In this document: piece by piece, positions 12,157 to 30,181 of the stretch
How positions within the stretch are numbered: the first letter of the stretch is position 1
How the letters are laid out: every line of letters begins with the position of its first letter
Program-made: the position numbers and the translations under genes
Notes under the pieces: generated by a model
Database searches by the model: none
The model's input: only the letters and a program-made list of their open reading frames with translations
Told to the model about the DNA's origin: nothing
Assembly: GCF_000165465.1 (NCBI RefSeq)
Contig: NC_017455.1
Span: forward strand, 2,108,001 to 2,172,000
Reading direction: 5' to 3'
Origin: Halanaerobium praevalens DSM 2228
Lineage (GTDB): Bacteria; Bacillota; Halanaerobiia; Halanaerobiales; Halanaerobiaceae
Length of the DNA: 64,000 nt

Positions 12157-15100
12157 TTAATCTTCTTCTGCTAAATAAAAAACTTGTTCTACTCCTTCAG
12201 GTAAACTAATACCTCCATTAATTAATTCAATTAGAGAATCTTTATCTACTCTAACTCGAATAAGATTATTATTTGGATTAGCAGCTTCCGAATTATTTGT
12301 TGAGCCCTCATCATTTCCCCCTCGGCTCAATTCACTTAAATAAACCTGTTCTGTACCAATAGCTAAAACAGGATCTTCATTTAAATTATTAATAAAATCA
12401 TCATTAACAACTAAAACCACAGTATAAATATCTTTAATGAACTCTGAGCCATCTATTTCTCTTGCAACTTCAATTATCCATCTGGCAGAATTTTCATTGA
12501 AAATTAGTTCAGGATAATCATTTTTATTGCCAAATTTTTTCTTAATCTCCCAGCCAGCTTCTTTAAAAGTAGCAAAATCCTTAAGCTCTTTAGTTGTTTT
12601 ACCATATTCAGTTTCCCCTAAAGCATCTGGATTTAGATTTTTATCATAAAAACTGGCTACTATTTCATTTTCTGGTAACTCAGGTATGGAAAGGCGAGCT
12701 GCTAAAGTTCTATCTGGCTCAGTTAAAAATAATCCACCTATATTTTCACCTTGACTAATCATTTCAACAGCAGCATAAGAATTTAATATTTTTTCATTTC
12801 TTAAAATCCCCACTAGACCAGCTGCATAATCATCAGCAATAATTTTCGCCTGAGCATAGCTATTTTCAATAGTTCCAGGGGGTTGAAGTCTTTTCTCCAT
12901 TCTACCAGCTAAACCTCCAATAAATCTGGAGCCCCTTATTTGCCCTTTAAAATAGCTGTTTTCTATTTTACTATCAATACCATAACCAACTAAGCCACCT
13001 ATAATTTCACTATTTGGCAGCTCAAAATCACTTGCTGCATAGCTATTTTTAATAATAGAATTCATTGAACCACCAATTAAGCCACCAATTATTGTATTTT
13101 CTAGTCTAATTCTTAAATCTGTTTTAAAACTTATTATTCTCTCGGGTTCTTTAAATGACATTTTCGAATAACTATTACTAATTTCTACTCCATTAGTCTC
13201 TCCCGCCAGACCCCCAACTAAATAATTAGCTTTAATTGTTCCTTGACTCCAGCTATTGCTAATTAATGCTTTTTCAACATTTTCGGGAGCTAAGGCAGAA
13301 GCTTTAAGATTATAATTTGAGTCAAGTCCTAAATAACCAACTAAGCCACCAACTCTATGATTACCAATAACTGTCCCCTGATAATAGCTATCTTCAACTT
13401 TGCTTTCTCTTGCATAACCAACTAAGCCACCTACATTGTTTTCGAAAGCTAAATCTAAGTTAGATTTTGAATAACTATTTATAATCTGTGAATTATAACT
13501 AGATCCAGCTAAACCACCAAAGCCGGTATTATAAGTTCCTCTAACCGCAAAGTCTCGCGGAGCAATAGAATCTGAGCCAATATCTGCATCTGAATAACTA
13601 TTTTCTATTTTAGAATAGTTTAAACTACCAACAAGTCCTCCTACATTTGCATAACCATCTACACTACCACTGCTGGAACTATTTTTAATTGTCCGAAAAG
13701 CAGTCCCTAGACTTCCAACTAAACCACCAACATCACTCCACCCTTTAACAATCGAGTCAGTATGAACATTTTCAATATGAGTATTTGAAGCAGAACCTGC
13801 AAGAGTTCCAACTCGATTTTCACCAGTAATTTCGGCATTTTTAAATTTTAAATTTCGAATATCAGAATTATAGAGACTAGAAAAAAGACCAAGATCACTA
13901 TTTATAGAATCAAGCTTAAAATTATTGATACTATAATTTTTACCATCTAAATTACCTTTAAATCCCACACTATTGTTTCCAATTGGCTGCCAATCTAAAC
14001 TACCATTTGTTAAGCTAGCATCAAGATCACTACCTAGCTCATAATTTCCTACTACATATTCAGGACTTACCAATCTAGAAGTTTTAGGTGTTAAATTTTC
14101 TCTTTGGCGAGCTGTATCAATCCACTGCAGCTGCTTAATATTATTAATAATTACTTTACCAGTATCTGCAAAATAAACATCACCATTTGCTTTAAAATAA
14201 ATTCCACCATCATTATTATTTTTATTTTCAACTACAGCATTAACATTAATATCATTATCAGCTTCTAATTCTAGTTTTGTTGCTGCAGACCAGCTAAGAT
14301 CAGAATTAATATCTATATTGCCTTCATCAGCATTAGAACCTTCCGTATTAATTGTTACATTACCACTATTTAAACTTGAGTTTAAAGTATTAGCAAAATC
14401 AGCATCAATATTGATATTTGTTGGATCTATTAACCAATGTCCACTTCTAATTTCTGCATTTTCACCTAAATTAAAGACTCGGCCACTAGTTTCTACAAAA
14501 CCTTCTTTTTTTCCTGTAATTAGTTTTCCATCAATTTTAGTTTCTCCACCATGAGCAAAAATTTCAATATAACCAGTTTTAGTTTCAGCAGAATTTTCAG
14601 CTTTTAGATCTGCAATAGTTCTAGCTTCTATTATACCTTCTGTATTTACTACTCCCGCTAAAAGATCATCAACTGCATTTACTGTTAAATATACTTTTCC
14701 ACCATCTGCCTTAATCGCCCTTTTATTTTCGACCAAACTATCTAATTCTCCCTTAGTTACTCTTAGATTAACTAAGGAATTAGCATTTAAATTGAGTGAA
14801 AATTCTTGACCTCCACTTAAATGTACTTCTCCTAAATTTGCTGTAATCAAGCCTTTATTAACTACTTTTTTAGCAAGCAAGGCTGAATATCCAGCATCTG
14901 AAATATTTATTTGTCCTTTGTTAATAACTGAAGTTTGGGCATTGCCAGCAAAAGAATAATTAGCATCCCTAAAATCCTGATCACTAAGCTCTTTAGTTGT
15001 GGCTAAAAGCCCGGCTGTATTTACTCTGGCATTTGCTCCAAATAATACTCCACTACTATTTAAAATCCAAACCTGACCATTAGCATTTAAAGCCCCATCA

Positions 15101-15375
15101 ATTACACTTTTTTCATTTCCTAAAATCCTGTTTAAAGTAATTGAGTTAAGACCTGGTTGATTAAAATTTACTGTTTCTGACTGATTAAGATTAAAACTTT
15201 GCCAATTAATTGTAGCTTTTGTTGAACTCTGATTAATCTCTGTCAGCTGATCACCATAGCTTATTTCGGCCTGACCTGTAGTGACTTTAGCACCTGTGGG
15301 AGCTGCCGCAGCTGTGCTGCCAAAAACTAAAATTAATAGTAAGAGAAAGACTAATATTTTTTGATAAAATTTCAT
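12157..15375 (-). CDS. Two-partner secretion exoprotein (TpsA) with TPS domain and GLUG repeats
   Basis: This is a 1072-residue exoprotein. After a signal peptide (about 1-25) comes a filamentous-haemagglutinin-type TPS domain (about 28-260). It contains the signatures NFNQPGLNSITLNRILG and NGQVWILNSSGVLFGANARVNTAGLLATT, the part recognised by the TpsB transporter. From about 450 to 900 it has many GLUG-type beta-helix repeats (GGLVG...I.NSYS). This predicts a right-handed beta-helix stalk. The last 150 residues are not repeated. The role is likely an adhesin or surface-associated protein; no toxin domain is recognised. The partner tpsB gene lies immediately upstream (40-bp gap), and a terminator follows. 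Confidence 0.88.
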   Translation of the reverse strand: MKFYQKILVFLLLLILVFGSTAAAAPTGAKVTTGQAEISYGDQLTEINQSSTKATINWQSFNLNQSETVNFNQPGLNSITLNRILGNEKSVIDGALNANGQVWILNSSGVLFGANARVNTAGLLATTKELSDQDFRDANYSFAGNAQTSVINKGQINISDAGYSALLAKKVVNKGLITANLGEVHLSGGQEFSLNLNANSLVNLRVTKGELDSLVENKRAIKADGGKVYLTVNAVDDLLAGVVNTEGIIEARTIADLKAENSAETKTGYIEIFAHGGETKIDGKLITGKKEGFVETSGRVFNLGENAEIRSGHWLIDPTNINIDADFANTLNSSLNSGNVTINTEGSNADEGNIDINSDLSWSAATKLELEADNDINVNAVVENKNNNDGGIYFKANGDVYFADTGKVIINNIKQLQWIDTARQRENLTPKTSRLVSPEYVVGNYELGSDLDASLTNGSLDWQPIGNNSVGFKGNLDGKNYSINNFKLDSINSDLGLFSSLYNSDIRNLKFKNAEITGENRVGTLAGSASNTHIENVHTDSIVKGWSDVGGLVGSLGTAFRTIKNSSSSGSVDGYANVGGLVGSLNYSKIENSYSDADIGSDSIAPRDFAVRGTYNTGFGGLAGSSYNSQIINSYSKSNLDLAFENNVGGLVGYARESKVEDSYYQGTVIGNHRVGGLVGYLGLDSNYNLKASALAPENVEKALISNSWSQGTIKANYLVGGLAGETNGVEISNSYSKMSFKEPERIISFKTDLRIRLENTIIGGLIGGSMNSIIKNSYAASDFELPNSEIIGGLVGYGIDSKIENSYFKGQIRGSRFIGGLAGRMEKRLQPPGTIENSYAQAKIIADDYAAGLVGILRNEKILNSYAAVEMISQGENIGGLFLTEPDRTLAARLSIPELPENEIVASFYDKNLNPDALGETEYGKTTKELKDFATFKEAGWEIKKKFGNKNDYPELIFNENSARWIIEVAREIDGSEFIKDIYTVVLVVNDDFINNLNEDPVLAIGTEQVYLSELSRGGNDEGSTNNSEAANPNNNLIRVRVDKDSLIELINGGISLPEGVEQVFYLAEED

Positions 15376-15415
15376 TTCAGCCTCCTTTTTGACTTTAAAC
15401 CCATTTAACCATTAT

Positions 15416-17110
15416 TTAAAAAACAAAACCAGCTTGAATTAAAAATCTACTATCATAATCATCCTCTGCTGTTACATCCTCATTTCCAAGCTTATGCGCC
15501 CAGTTTAATTTAGCAAAAAAATCTTTATAATTAAGATAATAAGCTAAGCCTAAATCCTGCAAGGTTCTTGATTCAAAATTCGCTACTGGATCTGCCATAT
15601 CTACTGAACCAAGATCATAAAATAGACTTAAACGATGTGAGTAATTTTCTAAATCAGGTAGATTATAAAAAAGCTCTAAATTAAGTAAATAACCTTTTTC
15701 AGCACTATGCTCACTAGCTGGATATAATCTAACTCCATTTACCCCACCAACAGAAAAATCTTCACTACCATCTAAATTTTGATCAGAAAAAACATATTGT
15801 ACTTTTAAAGAATTATTAAGTGACCATTTAGAATTAAATTGTATATTTTCAGCAAAGTGCAAGTTAGTTTTAGCAAAAGCACCAGCTGTATCTTCAAAAG
15901 CAGAATTATCAGGACTTCTGTCCAAATCTCCTAAACTAAGAGAACCCTGAATAGTTCGTTTAGAGTTCCAATTTTTTAAGCGATAGTTTTTAGTATTTGT
16001 TAAGCCAAAAGTCAATTTATTTAAAGTTTTAGCTGCTGTTTTAATTCCTGCCTGTTCATCTTCTAGATCCCTGTTCATCAATTCAGCTCTCAACTTAATA
16101 TTATGCAGACGAGTTCTTTTAATTGGATAACTAAAACTTAGAGATAAATCTTTAGAAACTCCTTCTATTTCCAAAGCAGAATAAATATCACCTAACTCAT
16201 ATTCTGTTCTAGCATAGGCTAATTCAGCCTCTAAACCTCTGGCATTTAAAGGAAGAGAATAAGCAAGCCTATAATTTTCTATACCACTACCATCACTTAA
16301 CATAGTTTGAATCCCTATTTGATCTCCTAAACCAAAAGGAGAATTAATATTTAAAGCTCCAGTTAATCTGTCTTCACCTGTATATTCACTCCCATAATTA
16401 TCAGCAACTAAATAGCCAGTAAATCTGGGGGTTGAGTCAGCTTTAATTAGAAAGTCACTAGTTCCCAGTTTTGCTCCTGGCATTACATCAGACTGAATAA
16501 CAACTGCTCCTGGTGTATCATTAATAATTAGCATAGCTCTCTCAATTGTATTTACACTAATAATATTTTGAGCTTTAACGGCATCCAAAATAGCCTGCAA
16601 TTTACTAGCTTTGACTAAAGAATTATTTTCTAAAATAAACTTACCATAATGACCCTCTATAACTGCTATTTCTAAGCTGTTATTTGCTATTTTTTGTTGA
16701 GGAATATAGGCACGGGCAACAAAAAATCCCTGCTGACGATAATATTTAGTTATTTTAAGAGCTGCTCTTTGCATTTCTAAAAAAGATATTTTTTTACCTG
16801 TATAAGTCTTAGTATTCACTAAAGCTTCTAGCTCAGCTGTACTCAAAAAATTATTACCACTAATAATTATTTTTTCAATCATTATTTTTTCAGTCCCCAA
16901 ATCTGAGGCTGGTTCTTTAATTTTCTCTTGTTCTAGTTTAGGCAGAGGAGAAGATTCTGCTTCAATTTCTGGTTTGTTTTCTGTTTCTTTGAGCACATCA
17001 CCAATATCTATTTTTGTACTAACAGGTTCCTTAATATTTTGAGCTAAAACTAAAGTCGGACTAGATAAAAGAAAAACAATCAGCAAAAATATTAATTTTT
17101 TATTTAGCAT
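15416..17110 (-). CDS. Two-partner secretion transporter TpsB (ShlB/FhaC family)
   Basis: This is a 564-residue outer-membrane pore of the Omp85 superfamily that exports the TPS-domain protein encoded next. It has a signal peptide (about 1-24) and a short acidic/Pro linker. A ShlB-type POTRA follows (about 77-147, MIEKIIISGNNFLSTAELEAL and FFVARAYIPQQ), then a second POTRA (about 148-212). The 16-strand-type barrel contains the lid-loop motif region GGVNGVRLYP, corresponding to the conserved VRGY, with Leu in place of Gly. The final residue is Phe. Gene order tpsB then tpsA with 40 bp between them is the standard arrangement. Confidence 0.9.
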   Translation of the reverse strand: MLNKKLIFLLIVFLLSSPTLVLAQNIKEPVSTKIDIGDVLKETENKPEIEAESSPLPKLEQEKIKEPASDLGTEKIMIEKIIISGNNFLSTAELEALVNTKTYTGKKISFLEMQRAALKITKYYRQQGFFVARAYIPQQKIANNSLEIAVIEGHYGKFILENNSLVKASKLQAILDAVKAQNIISVNTIERAMLIINDTPGAVVIQSDVMPGAKLGTSDFLIKADSTPRFTGYLVADNYGSEYTGEDRLTGALNINSPFGLGDQIGIQTMLSDGSGIENYRLAYSLPLNARGLEAELAYARTEYELGDIYSALEIEGVSKDLSLSFSYPIKRTRLHNIKLRAELMNRDLEDEQAGIKTAAKTLNKLTFGLTNTKNYRLKNWNSKRTIQGSLSLGDLDRSPDNSAFEDTAGAFAKTNLHFAENIQFNSKWSLNNSLKVQYVFSDQNLDGSEDFSVGGVNGVRLYPASEHSAEKGYLLNLELFYNLPDLENYSHRLSLFYDLGSVDMADPVANFESRTLQDLGLAYYLNYKDFFAKLNWAHKLGNEDVTAEDDYDSRFLIQAGFVF

Positions 17111-17276: not shown

Positions 17277-19352
17277 TTAAAATTCTAATCTAAGTGAGGT
17301 TTCTAACATTGAAGAAACAGCTTCAATATCATAACCCTGAACATTATTCTGTTTGTAACTAGAATCTGAATCAGTAATCCGACCAGTTAAATTCCAGCTC
17401 AAGTTCTCTCTGAGCTTTTTATTAATAAAGGCTTCCAGATAATTGTAACCAGCTTCCATTTCTGTTTTATACTCTGTTGATTTGTTAATAACACGGCTGT
17501 CCCAATTACCAAATTTATTAACAAACTTAGCTCCCAACTGAGTTTTAGCATCTAGCTGATAAATAGTTTTTAAAATCAGAGTTAACTGCTCAAAATCAGC
17601 AAAGAAATTATCATTTTTTTCATATTTTAAAGCCAAAGAATTAGCAAAGCGTTCTCTTTGCTGTTTTAAACCTAGTTTATATATTTCTTTAGCTTCCGGT
17701 TTTACACCTGGAGCAAAAACTAAACCTTTAAAAACTTGATCCCATTCCGAATCAGGCTCAAGATAAGCATAAGAGGATTCTAAAACTAAATTATCAGTTA
17801 GAATATAGTCAGCACCTAAACCATAAAGATCAAAACCATAAGGGGCAGCTAAATCATTTTCTACTGCCAAAAATTCATCTCCGACACTCTGATATCTAGG
17901 CTTTAATTTAAAACGATCATTAATTTTCCAGTCAGCTTCTAAATCAAGATAATAGTCATTACCTTTTTTATTTTTAAGTAATTCTTCAAAACCAATATAA
18001 TACATATTAGGATTTGCAAAAGAAGGTAAACCTAGATCTTCAAGATCCCAATCATTATAGACTAATTCTCCTTTTAAACTTAAAGCATCATTAAACCTAA
18101 AATTAGTAAAATTTATCGCTAAATTACTAACATTCTGACCTTCATAACGAAGTTGATTAAAGCCTAAACTATAATCAGCAGTATTGATTTCTTTGGCTGC
18201 AGTTAAAGAATATAGATCTACAGGAAAATTAAATCCAGCTAAATCAATTTCTGAACCTCCAGCTAAGAATTGCCAAGTTATATCTTTATAATTCCTCCTA
18301 TATTCTAAAGCTTCTAAATCATTTTCTGCTAAAAAATATGGTTTAAGCTGATAATCATCTAAATCACCAATTTTAAAGTAATTATCATGATAATTAAAGC
18401 TTAATAAAGCTTTGTCCATTTTTAAAGCTTTCTGTTCAGGCTGACTATAATCATTAAAACCATCCGCTTTGGAAAATAAATTATCTATAGTTTCTAATTC
18501 TAAGTTAAAATCACCAAAAGCCTGCTGGCCATTAATTGTAAAGTCATATTCCTGCCAGAATTTTTTACGAGTTGGAATAGAATTTATATCATCTTTATAA
18601 TTTTCATCGTTTGCTGCAAGCTCAAAAAATTCAAGTTTTAAAGGAAAGACATTTTCGTTATTAAAAATATCTGTATTCATATAATCAGCTAATAGAGTAT
18701 GATACATATCTGCATAATCCATATCTCCCAAGTATTCATTTGCCTCTAAATCTAAAACATCTTCGTCAGTCCAAGTATAAACGGCTAAGGCTCGCTCTTC
18801 TTTATTAGAAGGATAATCTGTTGTTTCAAAATTAGTAGTAATTACTGCCCCAAATTCTATTTTATCTTCTGGTACTTTTAACTCTGCTAACTTCGCTTCT
18901 ACTGCAGCTATTTCTGTACTTAAATTCTCTACTTCTGCTCCTAAGACTTCTAATTCAGAAGCAAATTCACGGCTTAAACTATCAACTATTAATTTTATAT
19001 CTTTTAGCTGACCAGAACTTAATTTTCTACCTGACTGATCAACAACCAACATTTTTTCGCTGGCCATTTCTTTAGCTACCTGAGCCTCTGACTCAGTCAA
19101 AGAATTAAACTGTTCCAGTTCTTTTACTCTCTGATAAGCTCGCTCAACTAAAACAGCAACCTGATAACGAGTCATTTCCTTTGTTCCCTTAAATTCACCA
19201 TCTGGATAGCCCTCAATAATTCCCTGCTCCTGCAGCTCTGTTAGTGCTTGATAGGCCCAATGCTCAACTTCTAAATCCGAAAATGCCGCCTCAACCCCCA
19301 ATGTACCAGTAAAAATTAAAATAAAGCTTAGAAAAATAATTAGTTTTTTCAT
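17277..19352 (-). CDS. SLH-domain outer-membrane porin (OmpM type), paralog 1
   Basis: The protein has 691 residues: a signal peptide (1-22), one SLH domain (about 24-75, FSDLEVEHWAYQAL, GIIEGYPDGEF, TRYQVAVLVERAY), a coiled-coil stalk (about 80-165), then a large beta-barrel ending in LRLEF. In diderm Firmicutes such OmpM proteins bind wall polymer through SLH and so tether the outer membrane while acting as a porin; that role is known for the family and inferred here. A perfect TATAAT at 19406-19401 is a possible promoter with a weak -35. The terminator lies right after the gene. It is paralogous to the product of 20337-22271. Confidence 0.9.
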   Translation of the reverse strand: MKKLIIFLSFILIFTGTLGVEAAFSDLEVEHWAYQALTELQEQGIIEGYPDGEFKGTKEMTRYQVAVLVERAYQRVKELEQFNSLTESEAQVAKEMASEKMLVVDQSGRKLSSGQLKDIKLIVDSLSREFASELEVLGAEVENLSTEIAAVEAKLAELKVPEDKIEFGAVITTNFETTDYPSNKEERALAVYTWTDEDVLDLEANEYLGDMDYADMYHTLLADYMNTDIFNNENVFPLKLEFFELAANDENYKDDINSIPTRKKFWQEYDFTINGQQAFGDFNLELETIDNLFSKADGFNDYSQPEQKALKMDKALLSFNYHDNYFKIGDLDDYQLKPYFLAENDLEALEYRRNYKDITWQFLAGGSEIDLAGFNFPVDLYSLTAAKEINTADYSLGFNQLRYEGQNVSNLAINFTNFRFNDALSLKGELVYNDWDLEDLGLPSFANPNMYYIGFEELLKNKKGNDYYLDLEADWKINDRFKLKPRYQSVGDEFLAVENDLAAPYGFDLYGLGADYILTDNLVLESSYAYLEPDSEWDQVFKGLVFAPGVKPEAKEIYKLGLKQQRERFANSLALKYEKNDNFFADFEQLTLILKTIYQLDAKTQLGAKFVNKFGNWDSRVINKSTEYKTEMEAGYNYLEAFINKKLRENLSWNLTGRITDSDSSYKQNNVQGYDIEAVSSMLETSLRLEF

Positions 19353-20336: not shown

Positions 20337-22271
20337 TTAGAAGCTTACAGTTAGAGAAGTAGTAAGTGCATTACCTTCTCCATCATTCATGTTTCCACTA
20401 CCATCATCTTTTTCATTAACTTCACCAGTAATATACTTAAGCTCTGTATTCCAAGTCATGTTGTCAGCTAACTCTTTATCCATAGTAGCTTTTAGATAGT
20501 TATAGTTAATTACATCACCATCAGTCTTTTCTTCATCTTTATTTACTAAAGCAGCACCTAGAGTAGTTGTTTCGTTCCAAGCGTACTCAGTACCTAATTC
20601 GATAAGAGTAATATCATGGTCATCTTCGAATCCATCATTGTTAGTAATAGTAACATCTACATTGTTAGTAAATTTACCATATACATTTTCCCATCCTACA
20701 GCGTACTCATACTTATCTTCTGCATCATTAGTATAGTTATCGCTTCCAGGATTAACTAATTCAATAGAACCATTAACTGTATTCATTTCGTTTACAATAT
20801 ACTCTGCACCTAACATGTACTTGTCATAATCTACATTATTTAGAGTCTTATCAACAGACTCACCTTCATCTGTACCAGCTAAGTCATCATTGATAGCATA
20901 GAATTCTGAACCAACAGTTTCAATCATACCATTAATAGTTAGAGCTTCAGTAGCAGCAAAGTCTCCATTAACCATAAAGTAGATATCATTAGCACTATCA
21001 TCTTTTACAACATCAATATCTTTATCTGAACTCCAATCATTAAATGCTAATTCTCCACCCATTGTTAGAGCTTCTGTAACTTCAACGTCTGTTAACTCAA
21101 GAGCAACATAAGTAGAATCTACAGAATTATCTTTAGTAAAGCCTTGACCTCTAACCTGATAAACTTTACCAGTTAAGTTACCAAAAGTCATAGCTTTGTG
21201 AGCTGTCATACCATAGTAATCAGCTGTTGTATCATCATCATCACCTAATACAGTAGCCATGAAGTCAATATCATTATAAGTGTAAGTTGCTTCTAGACCT
21301 TCCATATCTTCTTCATCAGTTAAATATTTTTCCATGTGGTAATCAGCAAAGTCTCCCATTCTGAAACCATAATCATGGTAAGTTACTTCTAATAAAGCAG
21401 AATCCATTAAGAATGTATCTTCATCTTCTGGACTGTAATGATAATCATCATCTAAACCAGGATAATTTTCATCAAAAATTGTATCTTCACTAGCAAATAC
21501 ATTAGTAATTGTATCTACATCTAAATTAAACTTAGCTTCTCCTAAGTTACCATTAATATTGAAATCAAATTCCTGCTCAAATCTCTTTTCTGCAGGGAAA
21601 TCAGAATCGTCCTCTGATTTATAAATATCTTTACCATCTTTATCTGTACCTTTTTCTGGAGCTGCAATATCTAAAGCATCACCATCAGCCCATAAAGCTA
21701 CAGTGTTTGCTTTTTCTTTATCATCACCATAGTTAGCTACTTCAAAAGTAGTCTTGAACTCTGCACCAAATTCAATGTTATCTTCAGGTACGTCCATAGC
21801 GTCTACTTTAGCAGCTAATTCGTCTACGTCTTTTCCTAAAGCTTCTACATCTGCACCTAGAACTTTAAGCTCAGCGCGTAATTCGAATGTTAAAGCATCA
21901 ACGATATCTGCTACTTCTTCAGCTTGAGCATCGCTTAAGCTTTCATTTGTGTTCTTTTCCATTAAAGACTTAACAATAGCTGTTACGTCTTCAGCTTGAC
22001 CTGTAGTTAGGCCTTGACCCATTGCGTCCATTTCGTCAACAATGTTATCTAAAGCGCGGCTAACCATTACAGCCATTTCGTAACGGGTCATTGACTTGTC
22101 ACCTTTGTACTCACCATCTGGATATCCTTCAACGATTCCAGCGGCTACCAACTTGTTAATAGCATTGTATGACCAGTGGCTTGCAGGTACATCTGAGAAA
22201 GAAGCACCAAAAGCAGGCATAGCTAATGCTACGACTAACATTAAAGCAATTGTAATTGTAAGTTTTTTCAT
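20337..22271 (-). CDS. SLH-domain outer-membrane porin (OmpM type), paralog 2
   Basis: The protein has 644 residues: a signal peptide (1-22), an SLH domain (about 24-75, FSDVPASHWSYNAI, GIVEGYPDGEY, TRYEMAVMVSRAL), a helical stalk (about 80-165) and a long, very acidic beta-barrel ending in SLTVSF. The SLH and stalk align closely with paralog 1; the barrels have diverged. Codon use is more uniform and richer in C-ending codons than its neighbours, as expected for a very abundant protein. The ribosome site is AAGGGGG, 10 bases before the ATG, and the leader upstream is long and structured (22272-22540). It is probably the major outer-membrane porin and wall tether. Confidence 0.92.
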   Translation of the reverse strand: MKKLTITIALMLVVALAMPAFGASFSDVPASHWSYNAINKLVAAGIVEGYPDGEYKGDKSMTRYEMAVMVSRALDNIVDEMDAMGQGLTTGQAEDVTAIVKSLMEKNTNESLSDAQAEEVADIVDALTFELRAELKVLGADVEALGKDVDELAAKVDAMDVPEDNIEFGAEFKTTFEVANYGDDKEKANTVALWADGDALDIAAPEKGTDKDGKDIYKSEDDSDFPAEKRFEQEFDFNINGNLGEAKFNLDVDTITNVFASEDTIFDENYPGLDDDYHYSPEDEDTFLMDSALLEVTYHDYGFRMGDFADYHMEKYLTDEEDMEGLEATYTYNDIDFMATVLGDDDDTTADYYGMTAHKAMTFGNLTGKVYQVRGQGFTKDNSVDSTYVALELTDVEVTEALTMGGELAFNDWSSDKDIDVVKDDSANDIYFMVNGDFAATEALTINGMIETVGSEFYAINDDLAGTDEGESVDKTLNNVDYDKYMLGAEYIVNEMNTVNGSIELVNPGSDNYTNDAEDKYEYAVGWENVYGKFTNNVDVTITNNDGFEDDHDITLIELGTEYAWNETTTLGAALVNKDEEKTDGDVINYNYLKATMDKELADNMTWNTELKYITGEVNEKDDGSGNMNDGEGNALTTSLTVSF

Positions 22272-22538
22272 TATTTAAAATCCCCCTTGATTGTTTGTAA
22301 TCTTTCTTTTTAATCTATATAAGTTCTATAACTTATTCAATCACAGAGGACTCCGAGCGAGTTTCCTAGTTTCCTCTTCTTTGTCCTAAGTATTTTAATA
22401 AGTAGTGAGAACTCTTATAACTCTACAGCTCCGCAGCTTCGGGGGGCACCTCCTTTCCACCGCATTTTAGCTTTGAGTTTATAAGCTTAATTATTACAAT
22501 TTTACAATTGTAAAAGGCAAAAAATATTTAATTGTCAA
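22272..22538 (-). promoter_or_regulatory. Long structured 5' leader and promoter of the SLH-porin gene
   Basis: This 302-base gap before the SLH-porin holds no convincing gene. Read on the minus strand it has a TTGACA -35 at 22538-22533 with a poor -10 (TTTTAC, 22515-22510). The transcript region then contains a perfect ribosome-site-like AAAGGAGGTG (22456-22447), immediately followed by six C (22446-22441), and an AGCT hairpin (22427-22438). A bipartite hairpin follows (outer AGAGG/CCTCT at 22345-22349 and 22373-22377, inner ACTC/GAGT at 22350-22353 and 22359-22362), then a 7-bp AT hairpin (22319-22336), and finally the true ribosome site (GGGGG, 22286-22282). The C run can pair either with the local GGAGG or with the true GGGGG site. 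No known riboswitch class is recognised. Confidence 0.55.
22500..22515. promoter_or_regulatory. 16-bp perfect palindrome (possible operator)
   Basis: TTTTACAATTGTAAAA is a perfect palindrome at 22500-22515, 17 bases downstream of the TTGACA box of the SLH-porin gene, so it would overlap the -10 region. A third half-site-like ATTACAAT lies next to it at 22493-22500. The regulator is unknown. Confidence 0.55.
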
Positions 22539-24314: not shown

Positions 24315-25415
24315 TTACTGCCGAGAACTTTTAAATAATAAAGCCAAACCAACTACAAAAATCACTATATTCTGCAGCCAGGCTCCCAACCAAGGCTCAA
24401 TTGTTCCCTGACTACCTAAAGCATCTCCGACTGTCATTAAAACATAATAAATAAATATTACAATAATCGAAATTCCAAAACCAGTTGCTGAGCCGGCAGA
24501 GCGCTGAGGCTTAATTCCCAAAGGTGCTGCCAAAAGAGCAAAAATAAAGCTGGCCAAAGGTATGGAAAATCTATGGTGAAACTCAACTCTTTCCGCATAT
24601 GCCTGCCGTCCTTGTTCTTCTTTTAAAGCAATATGCTCATTTAATTCTCTAATATTCATTTCATCAATATCTTTACCTAGTTTACCAGCCTGAGTTGGAG
24701 AATGGATCTCCTCTCTGGAGCGATAAGTACTGAATTCCAAAGCAGGCTGCCTATTTTCTCGATCTAAAAAATAAATAATCCCATCATAAAAATGCCAGCC
24801 GTCACTTAACCATTCTGCACTCTCTGCTTCTAAAACAGAATCTGGTTTGCCATCTTCAAAACTCTGGACAACTACATCCTTCATAATCCCACTATCTCCG
24901 TTAAAGCTGTGAGCATAAAGCATATAATCAGGGCGCCTGGTCCTGCTGTCCATTGGCGTTAAAAATAAATCATATTGAGTCTCCGGCCTCTGTTCTCCGT
25001 GTTGGGCTTGATACATTATTTGTTCAGCCTGATAATTAGCATTGGGCACTAAAAACTCCGAAATCCCAATAGTCACTCCACTTGTTAAAAGTCCTAAAAT
25101 TAAAGCAGGCATCACTAAAGCCAAAATACTAACTCCTCCAGCTCTCATAGCTGTAATTTCGCTGTCACCAGAAAGCCGATTATAAGCCATAATTGTACCT
25201 AAAAGTGAAGCCATCGGAAAAGTTAAAACAATAATCTCTGGTAGTTTTAAAAAGAAAAGTTTAATTAAAGTAAAAACTTCTACTCCCCATTTAGTATAAA
25301 ATTCTGTTAACTCAAAAATTAAATCTGTACCAATAAAAATACCAGTAAAAGCTGCCACCCCAAAGAAAAATGGTGCAATCAGTTCTTTATAGATATATTT
25401 ATTAAGTGTTTTCAC
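24315..25415 (-). CDS. LptF/LptG family LPS export permease
   Basis: This inner-membrane permease of the YjgP/YjgQ family has 366 residues from the chosen start. Three N-terminal membrane helices (starting KYIYKELIAPFFFGV, then LPEIIVLTFPMASLLGT) precede a periplasmic beta domain (about 135-270). Three C-terminal helices follow (FIFALLAAPLGIKP). I choose GTG at 25415 because it follows GAGGTG by 9 bases; longer in-frame versions would run deep into lptB. Only one such permease gene is present, where E. coli has lptF and lptG, so the transporter may use a homodimer or a second gene elsewhere. It lies downstream of and next to lptB. Confidence 0.9.
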   Translation of the reverse strand: MKTLNKYIYKELIAPFFFGVAAFTGIFIGTDLIFELTEFYTKWGVEVFTLIKLFFLKLPEIIVLTFPMASLLGTIMAYNRLSGDSEITAMRAGGVSILALVMPALILGLLTSGVTIGISEFLVPNANYQAEQIMYQAQHGEQRPETQYDLFLTPMDSRTRRPDYMLYAHSFNGDSGIMKDVVVQSFEDGKPDSVLEAESAEWLSDGWHFYDGIIYFLDRENRQPALEFSTYRSREEIHSPTQAGKLGKDIDEMNIRELNEHIALKEEQGRQAYAERVEFHHRFSIPLASFIFALLAAPLGIKPQRSAGSATGFGISIIVIFIYYVLMTVGDALGSQGTIEPWLGAWLQNIVIFVVGLALLFKSSRQ

Positions 25416-25431
25416 AAAAAGATGCACCTCA

Positions 25432-26151
25432 CTAAATTTTAAATTTTTCGCCGAGATAAAATTTGCGCGCTTTTTCATCTGCAGCAATTTCTTTGGCTGT
25501 TCCTGTTAAAAGAATCCGACCTTCGTGCATAATATAAGTTCTGTCAGTAATTGAAAGTGTTTCCCGAACACTGTGGTCAGTAATTAAAACTCCCAAACCT
25601 CTTTGCTTTAAATATAAAATTATATCCTGAATATCATTAACTGCAATAGGATCTACTCCAGCAAAAGGCTCATCTAATAAAATAAAATCCGGATCAGCAG
25701 CCAAAGCTCTGGCGATTTCTACCCTTCTTCTTTCTCCTCCAGAAAGCTGGAAACCCTTGCGTTCTCTTAAAGCTTCTAAATGAAATTCGGCCAGAAGCTC
25801 TTGAATATTTTTTTCTATTGCCGCTGAACTTAAATCTCGATATTCCAAAATAGCTTTCAAATTTTCTCCAACTGTTAATTTCCTAAAAATAGAAGCCTCC
25901 TGTGGTAAATAACCAATCCCAAGTTGAGCTCGCTTGTAAACTGGCAGCTCAGAAATATCTGCTTGATCATAAAAAATTTGACCCCCATCAGGGCTAATTA
26001 AACCTAAAATCATATAGAAAGTAGTAGTTTTTCCAGCTCCATTAGGACCTAAAAGGCCGACGATTTCTCCTCTTTTTACTTTAAGACTAACTTGATCAAC
26101 TACTTTTTCTTGATTATATTTTTTAATTAAAGCTTCTGCTCTAATTGGCAT
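25432..26151 (-). CDS. lptB: LPS export ATP-binding protein LptB
   Basis: This ABC ATPase powers LPS extraction from the inner membrane. It has 239 residues from ATG 26151, the usual length. It shows Walker A GPNGAGKTT, Q-loop YLPQEASIF, signature LSGGERRRVEIARAL, Walker B ILLDEPFAGVDP and switch His ITDHSVRET. A longer open frame upstream is only overlap with the preceding gene: the ATG overlaps the lptA-like stop by 11 bases, indicating translational coupling. Confidence 0.96.
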   Translation of the reverse strand: MPIRAEALIKKYNQEKVVDQVSLKVKRGEIVGLLGPNGAGKTTTFYMILGLISPDGGQIFYDQADISELPVYKRAQLGIGYLPQEASIFRKLTVGENLKAILEYRDLSSAAIEKNIQELLAEFHLEALRERKGFQLSGGERRRVEIARALAADPDFILLDEPFAGVDPIAVNDIQDIILYLKQRGLGVLITDHSVRETLSITDRTYIMHEGRILLTGTAKEIAADEKARKFYLGEKFKI

Positions 26152-26788
26152 CAGTTTGAGCCTCCACATCTGAGTCTGCTTGTTCATTTTTGGGAAGAGT
26201 GATTTGAGCCTGCCCCTGGAGCTGTACTTCTTCTGTCTGCTGATTGATCTCAGCTTTTTGGGCAGTAAAACTTTCTCCATTTCTTTCTCCTTCAACATTT
26301 CCGGTTAAATAAATCATTTCTCGCTCTAAATAATAAGTAATCTGATCTGCTTTAGCCCAAAAATCATTATATTCCAAATAAGCACTGCCTTTGACCTCAA
26401 TCCGATCTTCAGCTTGATAAAAATCAATTTTATCTGCTTCTAAATAAGAATTAGGGCCTTTAATCTGAGCATCTTTTTTTAAATGCAGAATCTCTGTTTT
26501 TAAATTACCTGTTAACTCAACTGCCTGACCTTCATATTCCTGGTAGAAAAACTCTACATTTTTTCTAAATTCTACTTCACCATTAAAACGACGATAAATA
26601 CCTTCATCTTCAGCTGTAATCCTTAATTGATCATAAATCAGCTCAACCTGACCAGTAGCTACTACAATCTGACCAGCTGAACTTTCTTTTAAGTCCAATT
26701 GATCTCCAGTTAGCTCTCTTTCGGCCTGAGCTGAAACTGGAATTACTAAAAATGCTATTAATAAAATTAAAAAAATCTTTTTATTCAT
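26141..26788 (-). CDS. lptA: LptA/OstA-like periplasmic LPS transport protein
   Basis: The 215-residue protein has a signal peptide (1-22) and an OstA-type beta-jellyroll made of repeating short strands (ATGQVELIYDQLRITAEDEGIYRR, GQAVELTGNLKTEIL, YLTGNVEGERNGESFTAQKAEI). In the family this forms the bridge that carries LPS from LptC to LptD. Assignment as LptA rests on that fold and its place between lptC-like and lptB genes. The start is ATG at 26788 with GAGGAG 7-8 bases upstream, and it overlaps the preceding gene by 8 bases. Confidence 0.85.
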   Translation of the reverse strand: MNKKIFLILLIAFLVIPVSAQAERELTGDQLDLKESSAGQIVVATGQVELIYDQLRITAEDEGIYRRFNGEVEFRKNVEFFYQEYEGQAVELTGNLKTEILHLKKDAQIKGPNSYLEADKIDFYQAEDRIEVKGSAYLEYNDFWAKADQITYYLEREMIYLTGNVEGERNGESFTAQKAEINQQTEEVQLQGQAQITLPKNEQADSDVEAQTDAN

Positions 26789-27386
26789 TGTTAGACTCCT
26801 CTGCTTTAATATCCTGCTGCAGGTCTTGAAATTTAATTACAGCTTGTTCTTTTTTATTTTTTTTGGATAAATTAAGTTCTTCCAATTTAAGATTAGAACT
26901 AAAAAATTCTGCTGTAGAATTAAAATCCTGACCTTTTAAGCTAACATTTCCTCTGCCTTCTAAATAATCTTTTTGCATTACATAATCTAGTTCATCTGCT
27001 AAAATAAGATAACGCTCACTCTCAACCACAACTTGACCTCTCACTTCTAGATATTCGCGCTGAGGATAATAAGTTCCCGCTTTCCCATCTAAAGTATAGA
27101 GTAATTCTTCAGTTTGCAGATCATAAACCTCAACTTCAACTGGCTCTAATTCTAAACGATCGTCATTTTTAAAATTTTCTACCTCGGCACTGATTAGCTT
27201 TAATTTTTGATTCTCAGCTTCATTATAGATATAAAAATTAACTTCTTTTAGTTCTGCGGCTGGTTTTTCCTCTGCTGCTGGCTCTGGTGCTTGAGGCATA
27301 GTTGGTATTTCTTCGCTGCTAAAATAAAAAGCAAAAGCTATAATTATAAAAATAAAGAGCGCTAAAAAAATACTCTTTTTATCCAC
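26781..27386 (-). CDS. lptC: LptC-like membrane-anchored LPS transport protein
   Basis: The 201-residue protein has one N-terminal membrane anchor (about 5-24) and no obvious cleavage site, then a Pro/Glu linker and a beta-jellyroll of LptC type (NFYIYNEAENQKLKLISAEVENF, LYTLDGKAGTYYPQREYLEVRGQVVV, DELDYVMQKDYLEGRGNV). This is the expected organisation of LptC, which hands LPS from the LptB-permease complex to LptA. Similarity is by layout rather than by strict motifs. It overlaps both neighbours slightly, so coupling is likely. The start is GTG at 27386 with GGAGGG upstream. Confidence 0.82.
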   Translation of the reverse strand: MDKKSIFLALFIFIIIAFAFYFSSEEIPTMPQAPEPAAEEKPAAELKEVNFYIYNEAENQKLKLISAEVENFKNDDRLELEPVEVEVYDLQTEELLYTLDGKAGTYYPQREYLEVRGQVVVESERYLILADELDYVMQKDYLEGRGNVSLKGQDFNSTAEFFSSNLKLEELNLSKKNKKEQAVIKFQDLQQDIKAEESNNE

Positions 27387-28524
27387 TATTTTTTAGCCCT
27401 CCTTCTTGCAGCAGTAAGTCTGCTGTTCTATTTACTGCCCCACCACCGCCTAATTTTTCACGCACGGTTTGTAGTTCAGCTTCTATTTTATTTAATTTAT
27501 GCTGATTATTTAACCAGTCTAAAGCAATTTCTACAAGTTCTGCTGTTTCAAAATCATTTTGTAATAACTCAGGTACAATTTGACTACCATAAATAATATT
27601 TGGTAAAGCTACAAATTCAATTTTAAAAATATATTTAGCTAAAAAATAAGAACTCCAAGCTGCTTGGTAACAAACCAGCTGGGGAGTTTGCAAAATAGCT
27701 GCTTCCAAAGTGGTAGTTCCCGAAGCTGTAATAATAAAATCAGCTATTTGCATCAACTCATAATTTGCTGACTCAACTATCTCAACTTCTACCTGACTCT
27801 GCCTCACAAAAGAAAGCAGGTAATCAATTTCAATTCCGGCTGCTGCTGCCAAAAAAATCTTCAGCTTAGACTTTTTTTGCTTTAAAATAGCAGCTGCCTC
27901 CAGCATTTTAGTTAAGAGAGAGTCGATTTCTCCCTTTCTACTACCTGGAAAAAGGCTAATCACCTGTTCTTTTTCTTTGAGCTGATATTTTGCTTTTAAT
28001 TCTGCAGTTTCGCTTTCTACTTTAACCAAGTCTAAGAGCGGATGTCCCACAAAACTAACTTCAGCTCCAGCCTCCTGATAAACTTCTTTTTCCATCGGAA
28101 AAACAGCTGCTATTTTAGTTCCATAAGCTGCCATTTTTTTAGCTCGCCGCCGATTATAAAGCCAAGCAGAAGGCGGAAAATAATTAACCGCCTTCACTCC
28201 TAATTCTCGACAGGCTTTAGCCAACCTCATATTAAAAGCAGAATAATCAACTAAAAAAACTAAATCTGGCTTTCTTAGTTTAATTAAATTTTTCATTTTC
28301 TTTAAGTGAGCAAAATGCTCTTTTAAATTTTTAAAAGCCTCTAAATAGCCAATAGTACTAATTGCTGTGGGATCAATTAAAATTTCAGCTCCCATAGCTT
28401 TGAGCTGGGGGCCACCCATCCCAAAAATTTCTAGTTCAGGTTCTTTAGCTCTAAGTTTTTTTAAAACTGCAGCTGCGTGCATATCACCAGATATTTCGCC
28501 TGCAGAAACCATTATTTTTAACAA
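27379..28524 (-). CDS. lpxB: Lipid-A-disaccharide synthase
   Basis: LpxB joins UDP-2,3-diacylglucosamine and lipid X into the lipid A disaccharide at the inner face of the membrane. It has 381 residues, the normal length. Landmarks are AGEISGDMHAAAVL at the N terminus, FGMGGPQLKAMGAE, FLVDYSAFNMRLAK, FPPSAWLYNRRRAK, FVGHPLLD, LFPGSRKGEI and ASGTTTLEAAI. It overlaps lpxI by 7 bases. The start is TTG at 28524; an in-frame ATG four codons later is a possible alternative. Confidence 0.95.
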   Translation of the reverse strand: MLKIMVSAGEISGDMHAAAVLKKLRAKEPELEIFGMGGPQLKAMGAEILIDPTAISTIGYLEAFKNLKEHFAHLKKMKNLIKLRKPDLVFLVDYSAFNMRLAKACRELGVKAVNYFPPSAWLYNRRRAKKMAAYGTKIAAVFPMEKEVYQEAGAEVSFVGHPLLDLVKVESETAELKAKYQLKEKEQVISLFPGSRKGEIDSLLTKMLEAAAILKQKKSKLKIFLAAAAGIEIDYLLSFVRQSQVEVEIVESANYELMQIADFIITASGTTTLEAAILQTPQLVCYQAAWSSYFLAKYIFKIEFVALPNIIYGSQIVPELLQNDFETAELVEIALDWLNNQHKLNKIEAELQTVREKLGGGGAVNRTADLLLQEGGLKNSG

Positions 28525-29348
28525 GGTAGGATCAATTCTCCTTCTTTAAATTCAGCAGCAGCGACAACAATTCCGGCGGCTGCAGCTTTTTGAAAAAATT
28601 TAGCTTGATCTAAAATAAAAGTTTGATCAGCTTCCACAATTAAAGCCCGAGCTTCAGCTGCAGCTAATTGCTCTAAAGTTTTTAAGCCAACTGTTGGAAT
28701 ATCAAAGCGCAAATCTTGTTCTTTTTTACTACATTTTGCCATTACCAGACCTGGGCCACCATATTTAGCAGCTCTTTGAATCGCCTGATCAGTTCCTTCG
28801 ATCGCCTCAAGTGCCAGAACAGCCCCATTTTTAACTATTGCTGTTTGGCCAATATCAAAACGACCTAAATTAATGGCTGTCTCAAAAGCAAAAATTAAAT
28901 CAGATTTAAGTTCTGCCTTAACTTCTCCAGCCAAAACCCCAGCTTTTGCCAGCTGGTCTGCTAAAAGATAAGTTTGCGGCAAAATATTAATCCCAATATT
29001 TATAATCTCTAAAGCTAAAGCCATTAAAATTGTATCATCATTTAAATTTGGTAACTGCTCTAATAGCTTTTGTAATTTCTGATCGGGCCTAAAATCAGCA
29101 AAAAGATGAGCTTTCTGAATTTTGCCGAGCCAGATAACTTCTTCTATCTTTTCCTCTGCTAAAATCTCAAGTATTTTACCAAGCTGAGTCAAATTAACCG
29201 TATAGGAGCTACAGTCTAAATCAGAGAATTCAGCTGTAATTTCTTCGGCAATTCTAATTACAATAAAATCCTCAGCTGCAGCTTGAGCTTTTTCAGCCCA
29301 AATTCGCGGCAGCTTACCCCAGCCTGCAATTAAAGCTTTTTTGCTCAT
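28518..29348 (-). CDS. lpxI: UDP-2,3-diacylglucosamine pyrophosphatase LpxI
   Basis: This 276-residue protein of the former DUF1009 family hydrolyses UDP-2,3-diacylglucosamine to lipid X, the step done by LpxH in enteric bacteria. N-terminal ALIAGWGKLPRIWAEKA and C-terminal motifs (LALEAIEGTDQAIQRAAKYGGPGLVMAK, RFDIPTVGLKTLEQL) are typical. It sits between lpxA and lpxB, which fits its place in the pathway. No lpxH is seen in the window. Confidence 0.94.
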   Translation of the reverse strand: MSKKALIAGWGKLPRIWAEKAQAAAEDFIVIRIAEEITAEFSDLDCSSYTVNLTQLGKILEILAEEKIEEVIWLGKIQKAHLFADFRPDQKLQKLLEQLPNLNDDTILMALALEIINIGINILPQTYLLADQLAKAGVLAGEVKAELKSDLIFAFETAINLGRFDIGQTAIVKNGAVLALEAIEGTDQAIQRAAKYGGPGLVMAKCSKKEQDLRFDIPTVGLKTLEQLAAAEARALIVEADQTFILDQAKFFQKAAAAGIVVAAAEFKEGELILPC

Positions 29349-29356
29349 AATTACAC

Positions 29357-30181
29357 CTACCGGCAGATTCCGCGGCTGGCATTACGCAAAAAGCGTAAAA
29401 AATGTTCAATTTCTTCACTAGCATCTAATTCTTGATCCATTTTTTCTATTGCCTGATCAATATTTAATTTAGAACGGTAGAGAGTTTTATAAGCACTCTT
29501 TATTTCACGCCTCATTTTAGGACTAACACCATTTCGTCTGAGTCCAACTACATTAATCCCATTGACACTAGCAGGATGACCATCTACTAAAATATAAGGT
29601 GGTACATCTTTTACTACTTTAGAGTGGGCACCAACCATGCTCATCTTACCGATGCGTACAAACTGATGAACTCCAACCATGCCAGCAATTACTGTATGGT
29701 CTTCAATTACTACATGGCCTGCTAAATTAGTAGCATTAGACATAATTATATTACTTCCTAGCTGACAATCATGAGCTACATGACAGTAAGCCATAATTAA
29801 ATTATCATTTCCAATTCTTGTCTCCCCGCCACCATCGGCAGTCCCCCGGTGAATCGTAGCATTTTCTCTAATTGTATTATTATCCCCAATAAAGAGGTAA
29901 CTTTTTTCGCCCTCAAATTTTAAATCTTGAGGCTCAAAACCAATTGAAGCTCCATGGAATATCTCATTATTTTTACCAATAGTTGTCCAACCTTTAATTA
30001 CTACATGTGGGCCAATTACTGTTCCGGCTCCAATTTCTACATTTTCTCCAATAATAGCATATGGTCCAACTTCTACATTTTTCCCTAGTTTGGCTCCAGG
30101 AGCAACGATTGCTGTTTCATGAATATTTTTGCTGCTCATGTGGAGCACTTTTCCCTTTTTCTCAGCTGCCAAGACTATCAT
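29357..30181 (-). CDS. lpxA: UDP-N-acetylglucosamine O-acyltransferase
   Basis: LpxA transfers a 3-hydroxyacyl chain from acyl-ACP to UDP-GlcNAc, the first step of lipid A synthesis. The protein is a left-handed beta-helix of hexapeptide repeats (about 20-205) with the catalytic His in ATIHRGT and the family text YCHVAHDCQLGSNIIMSNATNLAGHV, plus a C-terminal helical domain. The annotated start at 30181 has AGGAAGGGG upstream. It gives a 14-residue N-terminal extension over the usual start (MSSKNIHETAIV at 30139), so the exact start is uncertain. Confidence 0.96.
   Translation of the reverse strand: MIVLAAEKKGKVLHMSSKNIHETAIVAPGAKLGKNVEVGPYAIIGENVEIGAGTVIGPHVVIKGWTTIGKNNEIFHGASIGFEPQDLKFEGEKSYLFIGDNNTIRENATIHRGTADGGGETRIGNDNLIMAYCHVAHDCQLGSNIIMSNATNLAGHVVIEDHTVIAGMVGVHQFVRIGKMSMVGAHSKVVKDVPPYILVDGHPASVNGINVVGLRRNGVSPKMRREIKSAYKTLYRSKLNIDQAIEKMDQELDASEEIEHFLRFLRNASRGICR

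Follow-up and report, generated by a model that had tools for sequence, protein, structure and literature searches.

A conserved two-hairpin leader RNA of SLH-porin genes with predicted pairing between an apical loop and the gene's own ribosome site

What is a strong Shine-Dalgarno (SD) sequence doing in the leader of a porin gene if no reading frame uses it? The question is raised by a 64 kb stretch of Halanaerobium DNA (64,000 nucleotides; the window, by which we mean the whole stretch analysed), in which the leader of the gene for the bacterium's main outer-membrane porin, an SLH porin, carries a perfect SD copy followed immediately by a run of cytosines. In most diderm Terrabacteria the outer membrane is believed to be tethered by SLH porins of the OmpM type (PMC10628300), and in the papers available a search on leader RNAs of Halanaerobium, of Thermus slpA and of ompM genes yielded no account of porin synthesis being set by an mRNA leader. 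The initial annotation had placed AAAGGAGGTG at 22456-22447, CCCCCC at 22446-22441 and GGGGG at 22286-22282, all on the minus strand, and these positions were confirmed. The elements used in the analysis are as follows.

20337 to 22271, minus strand: SLH porin (OmpM-like) of 644 aa, the gene behind the leader (Pfam SLH, E=8e-14).
22271, minus strand: start codon of the porin, ATG (from the sequence).
22282 to 22286, minus strand: SD of the gene, GGGGG, putative long-range partner of the antisense segment (from the sequence).
22323 to 22412, minus strand: hairpin (domain) II, a long imperfect helix closed by GUUCU 22412-22408 and AGAAC 22327-22323 (from folds).
22359 to 22376, minus strand: conserved apical part of hairpin II, GAG-GAAACTAGGAAA-CTC, with a GGAAAC repeat in a 12-nt loop (from the class alignment).
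22414 to 22485, minus strand: hairpin (domain) I, comprising P1 (22485-22475/22423-22414), P2 (22472-22469/22430-22427) and P3 (22463-22460/22436-22433) (from covariance model R1).
22441 to 22446, minus strand: CCCCCC, an antisense segment that complements the SD of its own gene and co-varies with it in relatives.
22447 to 22456, minus strand: AAAGGAGGTG, the decoy SD, which sits in the loop at the tip of hairpin I and complements the 16S 3' end CACCUCCUUU at 10 of 10 positions.
22507 to 22538, minus strand: predicted promoter, with -35 TTGACA at 22538-22533 and -10 TACAAT at 22512-22507 (from the sequence and a same-genus alignment).

The promoter aligns with TTGACA...TGTTATAAT of same-genus relatives, its spacer of 20 nt being above the usual length, and this alignment places the predicted transcription start at about 22500 and thus gives a leader of about 228 nt. 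A second SLH porin two genes downstream (17277-19352, minus strand) is without such a leader, and the host genome contains one R1 match only. Elsewhere in the window, and judged from translations only, the minus strand holds a two-partner-secretion-like pair at 12157-17110 (a filamentous exoprotein of 1072 aa and a ShlB/FhaC-like transporter of 564 aa) and, upstream of the leader at 24315-30181, a run of outer-membrane genes resembling LptF/G, LptB, LptA/C-like, LpxB, LpxI and LpxA.

The 16S genes of the host genome end in ...GGATCACCTCCTTTCT, which makes the decoy a 10-of-10 complement. It copies the strong SD AAAGGAGGUG, is adjoined in loop I by the antisense segment, and occurs once in the 64 kb window against 0.15 occurrences expected from shuffles. 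Pairing with 16S at 10 of 10 positions (G-U counted) is kept in 43 of 49 class-level matches, a figure to be taken as descriptive since the covariance model favours such sequences. The claim that this ribosome site lacks a reading frame held up: there are no starts 4-11 nt behind it here and, although 38 of 129 relatives have some ATG, GTG or TTG in that range, a conserved start codon or frame is absent. That the decoy serves as ribosome site for a leader peptide or an attenuator, as its strength might suggest, is exceedingly improbable given this absence and the finding of no intrinsic terminator in the porin leader. The same site invites another reading, in which the leader is a messenger stabiliser of the STAB-SD type: a 30S subunit parked at the near-5' decoy would block 5'-to-3' exonuclease and thereby prolong the life of an abundant porin message, and the C run would be secondary. 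The SD-like site is frameless, lies about 45 nt from the predicted start and perfectly complements 16S, and STAB-SD offers a precedent (cited in PMC3997798), but we hold this reading to be unlikely, as it accounts neither for an antisense that co-varies with the gene's SD nor for the conservation of loop II.

The proposal of a structured regulatory leader was borne out. The RNA folds better than shuffles (-56.9 kcal/mol, z -2.28), and a covariance check on homologous leaders, set beforehand as the refutation test, returned both conservation and strong covariation for two hairpins. For hairpin I, 86.6% of cells are paired across 47 distinct class-level sequences and 19 of 19 pairs show double-sided changes, with a covariation score of 0.544 against 0.221 for shuffled and at most 0.178 for slid versions, in an alignment that was fitted to the tested structure and so favours it; on a plain alignment of 23 sequences the covariation was 0.330 against 0.215. 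For hairpin II, 13 divergent leaders were aligned by sequence alone, with the structure taken from folds of the same sequences, and there 19 pairs have double-sided changes, 0 of 500 shuffles match the score and slides are beaten too. RNAalifold, run on the sequence-only alignment A1, mis-drew domain II and paired a C-rich stem with the SD; this drawing was rejected and replaced by per-sequence folds and structure-based counts.

Leader identity is 77-87% across 11 same-genus genomes, and parts of the leader recur across the order, again before SLH porins. The covariance model of hairpin I (R1) has matches in 43 of 59 Halanaerobiia genomes, mostly one in each, and in these genomes the leader precedes SLH porins. 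The further R1 matches that were read lie some 60-200 nt, measured from where the model match ends, ahead of a gene encoding a signal peptide and an SLH porin; the exceptions are one locus without the SLH part (L085) and one cut by the contig end (L087). In two Halanaerobium genomes a second, diverged copy of leader and porin lies 3-4.5 kb from the first (L018/L083 in G007; L017/L081 in G010). A two-motif pattern (GGAGGTG and GAGGAAACnnGGnnACTC, 66-96 nt apart) was then run over GTDB genomes, and the matches listed include Halanaerobiales, Limnochordia, Negativicutes, Atribacterota, Trueperaceae and other Deinococcota, together with one Synergistetes and one Armatimonadetes MAG. Nearly all of those examined among the matches listed stand before genes for signal-peptide porins whose N-termini are SLH or related. 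The pattern was found in 33 of 111 Deinococcota, 20 of 50 Atribacterota and 7 of 149 Bacillota, and the reversed pattern gave 0 matches in the same three scans. Since the search pattern itself imposed the decoy and loop II outside Halanaerobiia, their invariance there is no evidence of conservation. Two Mesorhizobium matches (L150, L165), with no porin behind them, were taken as chance. One Negativicutes MAG (L121) has tandem porin genes, each with its own leader, the copies lying at 1078, 2746 and 7411, with a fourth in L156. The two-motif pattern occurs in 1 of 101 Synergistota genomes and a strict pattern for the hairpin II loop alone in 7 of 101; 9 of the 10 Synergistota loci read for this loop stand before SLH porins, the tenth (L264) not. 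These nine (L259-L263, L265-L268) have the hairpin II loop without an evident decoy loop, which implies that domain I is dispensable in some leaders.

For the C run two alternative partners had been proposed, the GGAGG beside it and the true SD of the gene, and it is the second that relatives preserve. Although GG-A-GG does pair with CCCC in the minimum-energy fold of the window, the loop segment of decoy and antisense has a weaker local fold (-4.06 kcal/mol) than its shuffled counterparts (-5.76 kcal/mol), which argues against GGAGG/CCCCCC pairing and for an open loop. The local pairing is also missing in relatives, for instance in Atribacterota, where the segment CUUGGUAG has no complementarity to the decoy. 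A switch in which CCCCCC alternates onto the adjacent GGAGG is thus very unlikely, and this part of the initial annotation was not supported.

The pairing with the gene's SD could be examined with some independence, for the pattern search used neither the segment behind GGAGGUG nor the gene's SD; a caveat is that start codons were picked by a rule favouring an SD, albeit with no regard to whether that SD complements the loop. The antisense/SD pair reads CCCCC/GGGGG in most Halanaerobiia. In family f10, where the SD is AAGGAGG, it reads CCUUGAUUG/CAAUCAAGG, with CAAUCAAGGAGG as the natural partner to CCUUGAUUG; a Trueperaceae has CCCUUGAAUCG/CGAUUCAAGGG, an Atribacterota CUUGGUAG/CUACCAAG and a Bacillota lineage CCCUAAGU/ACUUAGGG at the corresponding places. 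Matched changes are found even among the three tandem copies of a single Negativicutes genome (CCUUAGGUU/AACCUAAGG; CCUUAGGA/UCCUAAGG). Averaged across 129 leaders, cognate partners form a duplex of -12.5 kcal/mol and permuted partners one of -10.05 (sd 0.19), and 0 of 20,000 permutations reach the cognate mean. These permutation tests are phylogeny-free and handle relatedness by clustering only: with one leader per cluster (80, 53, 41 or 22 clusters) at most 2 of 10,000 permutations reach the observed value, with the coarsest grouping into three clusters the test is without power, and for Halanaerobiia alone and for a mostly Trueperaceae set 0 of 10,000 reach it in each case. At least eight contiguous Watson-Crick pairs are formed in 23 of the 129 leaders, compared with 4.4 for non-cognate combinations and 0.3 for shuffled loops, and the pairing is centred at -11 to -16 from the start codon, i.e. 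on the SD. Weakly paired leaders are the first copies of L098 and L152, and L207. Among the windows of each leader, loop I is strictly the best partner of the SD in 47 of 129 only, because other C-rich stretches also pair with GGGGG.

The porin SD itself is of a minority type: in a 400 kb sample of the host genome, 19 of 297 ORFs have GGGGG as their SD-like motif and 80 have GGAGG, yet nearly all Halanaerobiia leaders examined, family f10 excepted, use GGGGG. This is consistent with a pairing constraint, though the SD type is not unique. The compensatory changes, with cognate pairing stronger than permuted, support a long-range pairing between the C run and the SD, whose complementarity has been maintained across phyla.

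With moderate confidence, we therefore read the leader as a conserved cis-acting translational-control RNA of SLH-porin (OmpM-type) mRNAs in which loop I is predicted to occlude the SD. The open loop of hairpin I would present two neighbours, the SD copy AAAGGAGGUG and a segment antisense to the SD region of the porin gene itself. The antisense would pair over a distance with the SD, forming a pseudoknot that joins loop I to the ribosome-binding site, hides the SD and presumably lowers translation, and translation would be permitted once this pairing opens. The likeliest opener would be a 30S subunit whose 16S 3' end docks on the adjacent decoy, as the 16S-decoy and antisense-SD helices could hardly coexist in one loop; the decoy might then be both a docking site and a sensor of free 30S subunits. 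The GGAAAC-repeat loop of hairpin II most likely binds a protein or another RNA that would modulate the switch, and the outcome would be that porin synthesis is adjusted to translation capacity and to the state of the envelope. Messenger stabilisation, a riboswitch and control by a small RNA or protein may each be combinable with occlusion of the SD.

As RNA, the apical part of hairpin II reads GAG-GAAACnnGGnnA-CUC, in which the second GGAAAC copy has two free positions, and GAGGAAACnnGGnnACTC is present in all rows of the class alignment. CsrA was considered as a binder and rejected: ANGGA is not conserved, the conserved part being GAGGAAACnnGGnnACUC, and the second GG of the loop, which is TAGGA in the window and GGCCA, GGTCA or GGCAA elsewhere, often has no following A, so that CsrA is unlikely. 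The loop could nevertheless be the target of a conserved protein or small RNA that alone sets expression, a tentative but possible reading. The eight best matches to Cyano-1 (RF01701) in the 59 Halanaerobiia genomes all coincide with hairpin II. Cyano-1 appears, from the description of Yfr2, to be this cyanobacterial RNA, which has a 12-nt loop with a GGAAACA repeat and a long stem interrupted at -4 (PMC1242208; PMC2662882) and for which a similar binding is suspected; Yfr1, which interacts with Yfr2, acts on two porin mRNAs in Prochlorococcus (PMC6778093). Against this, the Cyano-1 scores stay under the gathering threshold of the family (best in the class 30.3 bits against 41), the partner is a putative one, whether RNA or protein, with CsrA unlikely, and the covariation between loop I and the SD is left unexplained. 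A Trueperaceae leader gave no Cyano-1 match and a Synergistota leader a weak one, at 15.6 bits.

The initial annotation recognised no known RNA family in the leader, and this stood in part. Rfam 15 at its gathering score matched neither the window nor 20 relatives, a permissive Rfam search of the window gave Cyano-1 only (18.6 bits, below threshold), and a phage collection held no match to the leader. On the other side, Stav et al. (2019) reported a riboswitch candidate, 'SLH', from Synergistaceae, Clostridia and Negativicutes; of its 80 examples, about 60% stand before genes for SLH proteins (PMC6429828), and this published motif is probably the leader element or its hairpin II, or overlaps it, as far as descriptions rather than consensus sequences can be compared. 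A small-molecule riboswitch would make hairpin II, with or without hairpin I, the aptamer and the pairing of loop I with the SD the expression platform. The high sequence conservation of loop II fits such a design, and Stav et al. proposed a possible signalling ligand (PMC6429828), but hairpin II, one imperfect helix whose only conserved loop is the apical one and which lacks a conserved junction, would be unusual for an aptamer, and the candidate has neither an Rfam match at threshold nor a known ligand; we consider a riboswitch improbable.

Among known systems, hairpin II resembles Yfr2/Cyano-1, sharing a 12-nt GGAAAC-repeat loop on a long helix that in Yfr2 is interrupted near -4. Yfr2, unlike hairpin II in its porin mRNA leader, is a separate cyanobacterial sRNA with a 5' single-stranded element; the likeness may reflect either descent or convergence. 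A wider conjecture, speculative and on balance doubtful, is an ancient SLH-porin RNA module of diderm Terrabacteria, in which the GGAAAC hairpin would act in cis in Halanaerobiia, Deinococcota, Atribacterota and Synergistota and in trans as Yfr2, the cis form being coupled to a loop that binds either 16S or the SD, and the mRNA thereby sensing free 30S. If hairpin II and Yfr2 share a partner, findings in one group would explain the other. With the SLH motif the leader shares the character of a cis-regulatory element upstream of genes for SLH-domain proteins, while the available text of that report mentions neither a decoy SD nor a segment antisense to the gene's own SD, and names none of Halanaerobiales, Atribacterota and Deinococcota (PMC6429828). 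A conserved porin leader with a readable mechanism permits a direct test of OmpM-type porin control. To our knowledge, several features are unpublished: the two-domain layout, the 16S-complementary decoy, the antisense to the gene's own SD with its compensatory changes, the occurrence in Halanaerobiia, Atribacterota and Deinococcota, and the resemblance to Yfr2. We also know of no described family with a switch design that sets a decoy SD beside an antisense to the gene's own SD. The STAB-SD 5' stabilisers (cryIIIA, Bacillus) likewise have a frameless SD-like sequence near the 5' end, which in the porin leader is a predicted one, but are not known to carry an adjoining segment antisense to the gene's SD or to share a conserved two-hairpin fold. 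In translational riboswitches and thermosensors of the anti-SD kind, an upstream anti-SD segment likewise sequesters the SD; unlike theirs, the putative anti-SD of the porin leader lies in an apical loop, beside a decoy SD complementary to 16S.
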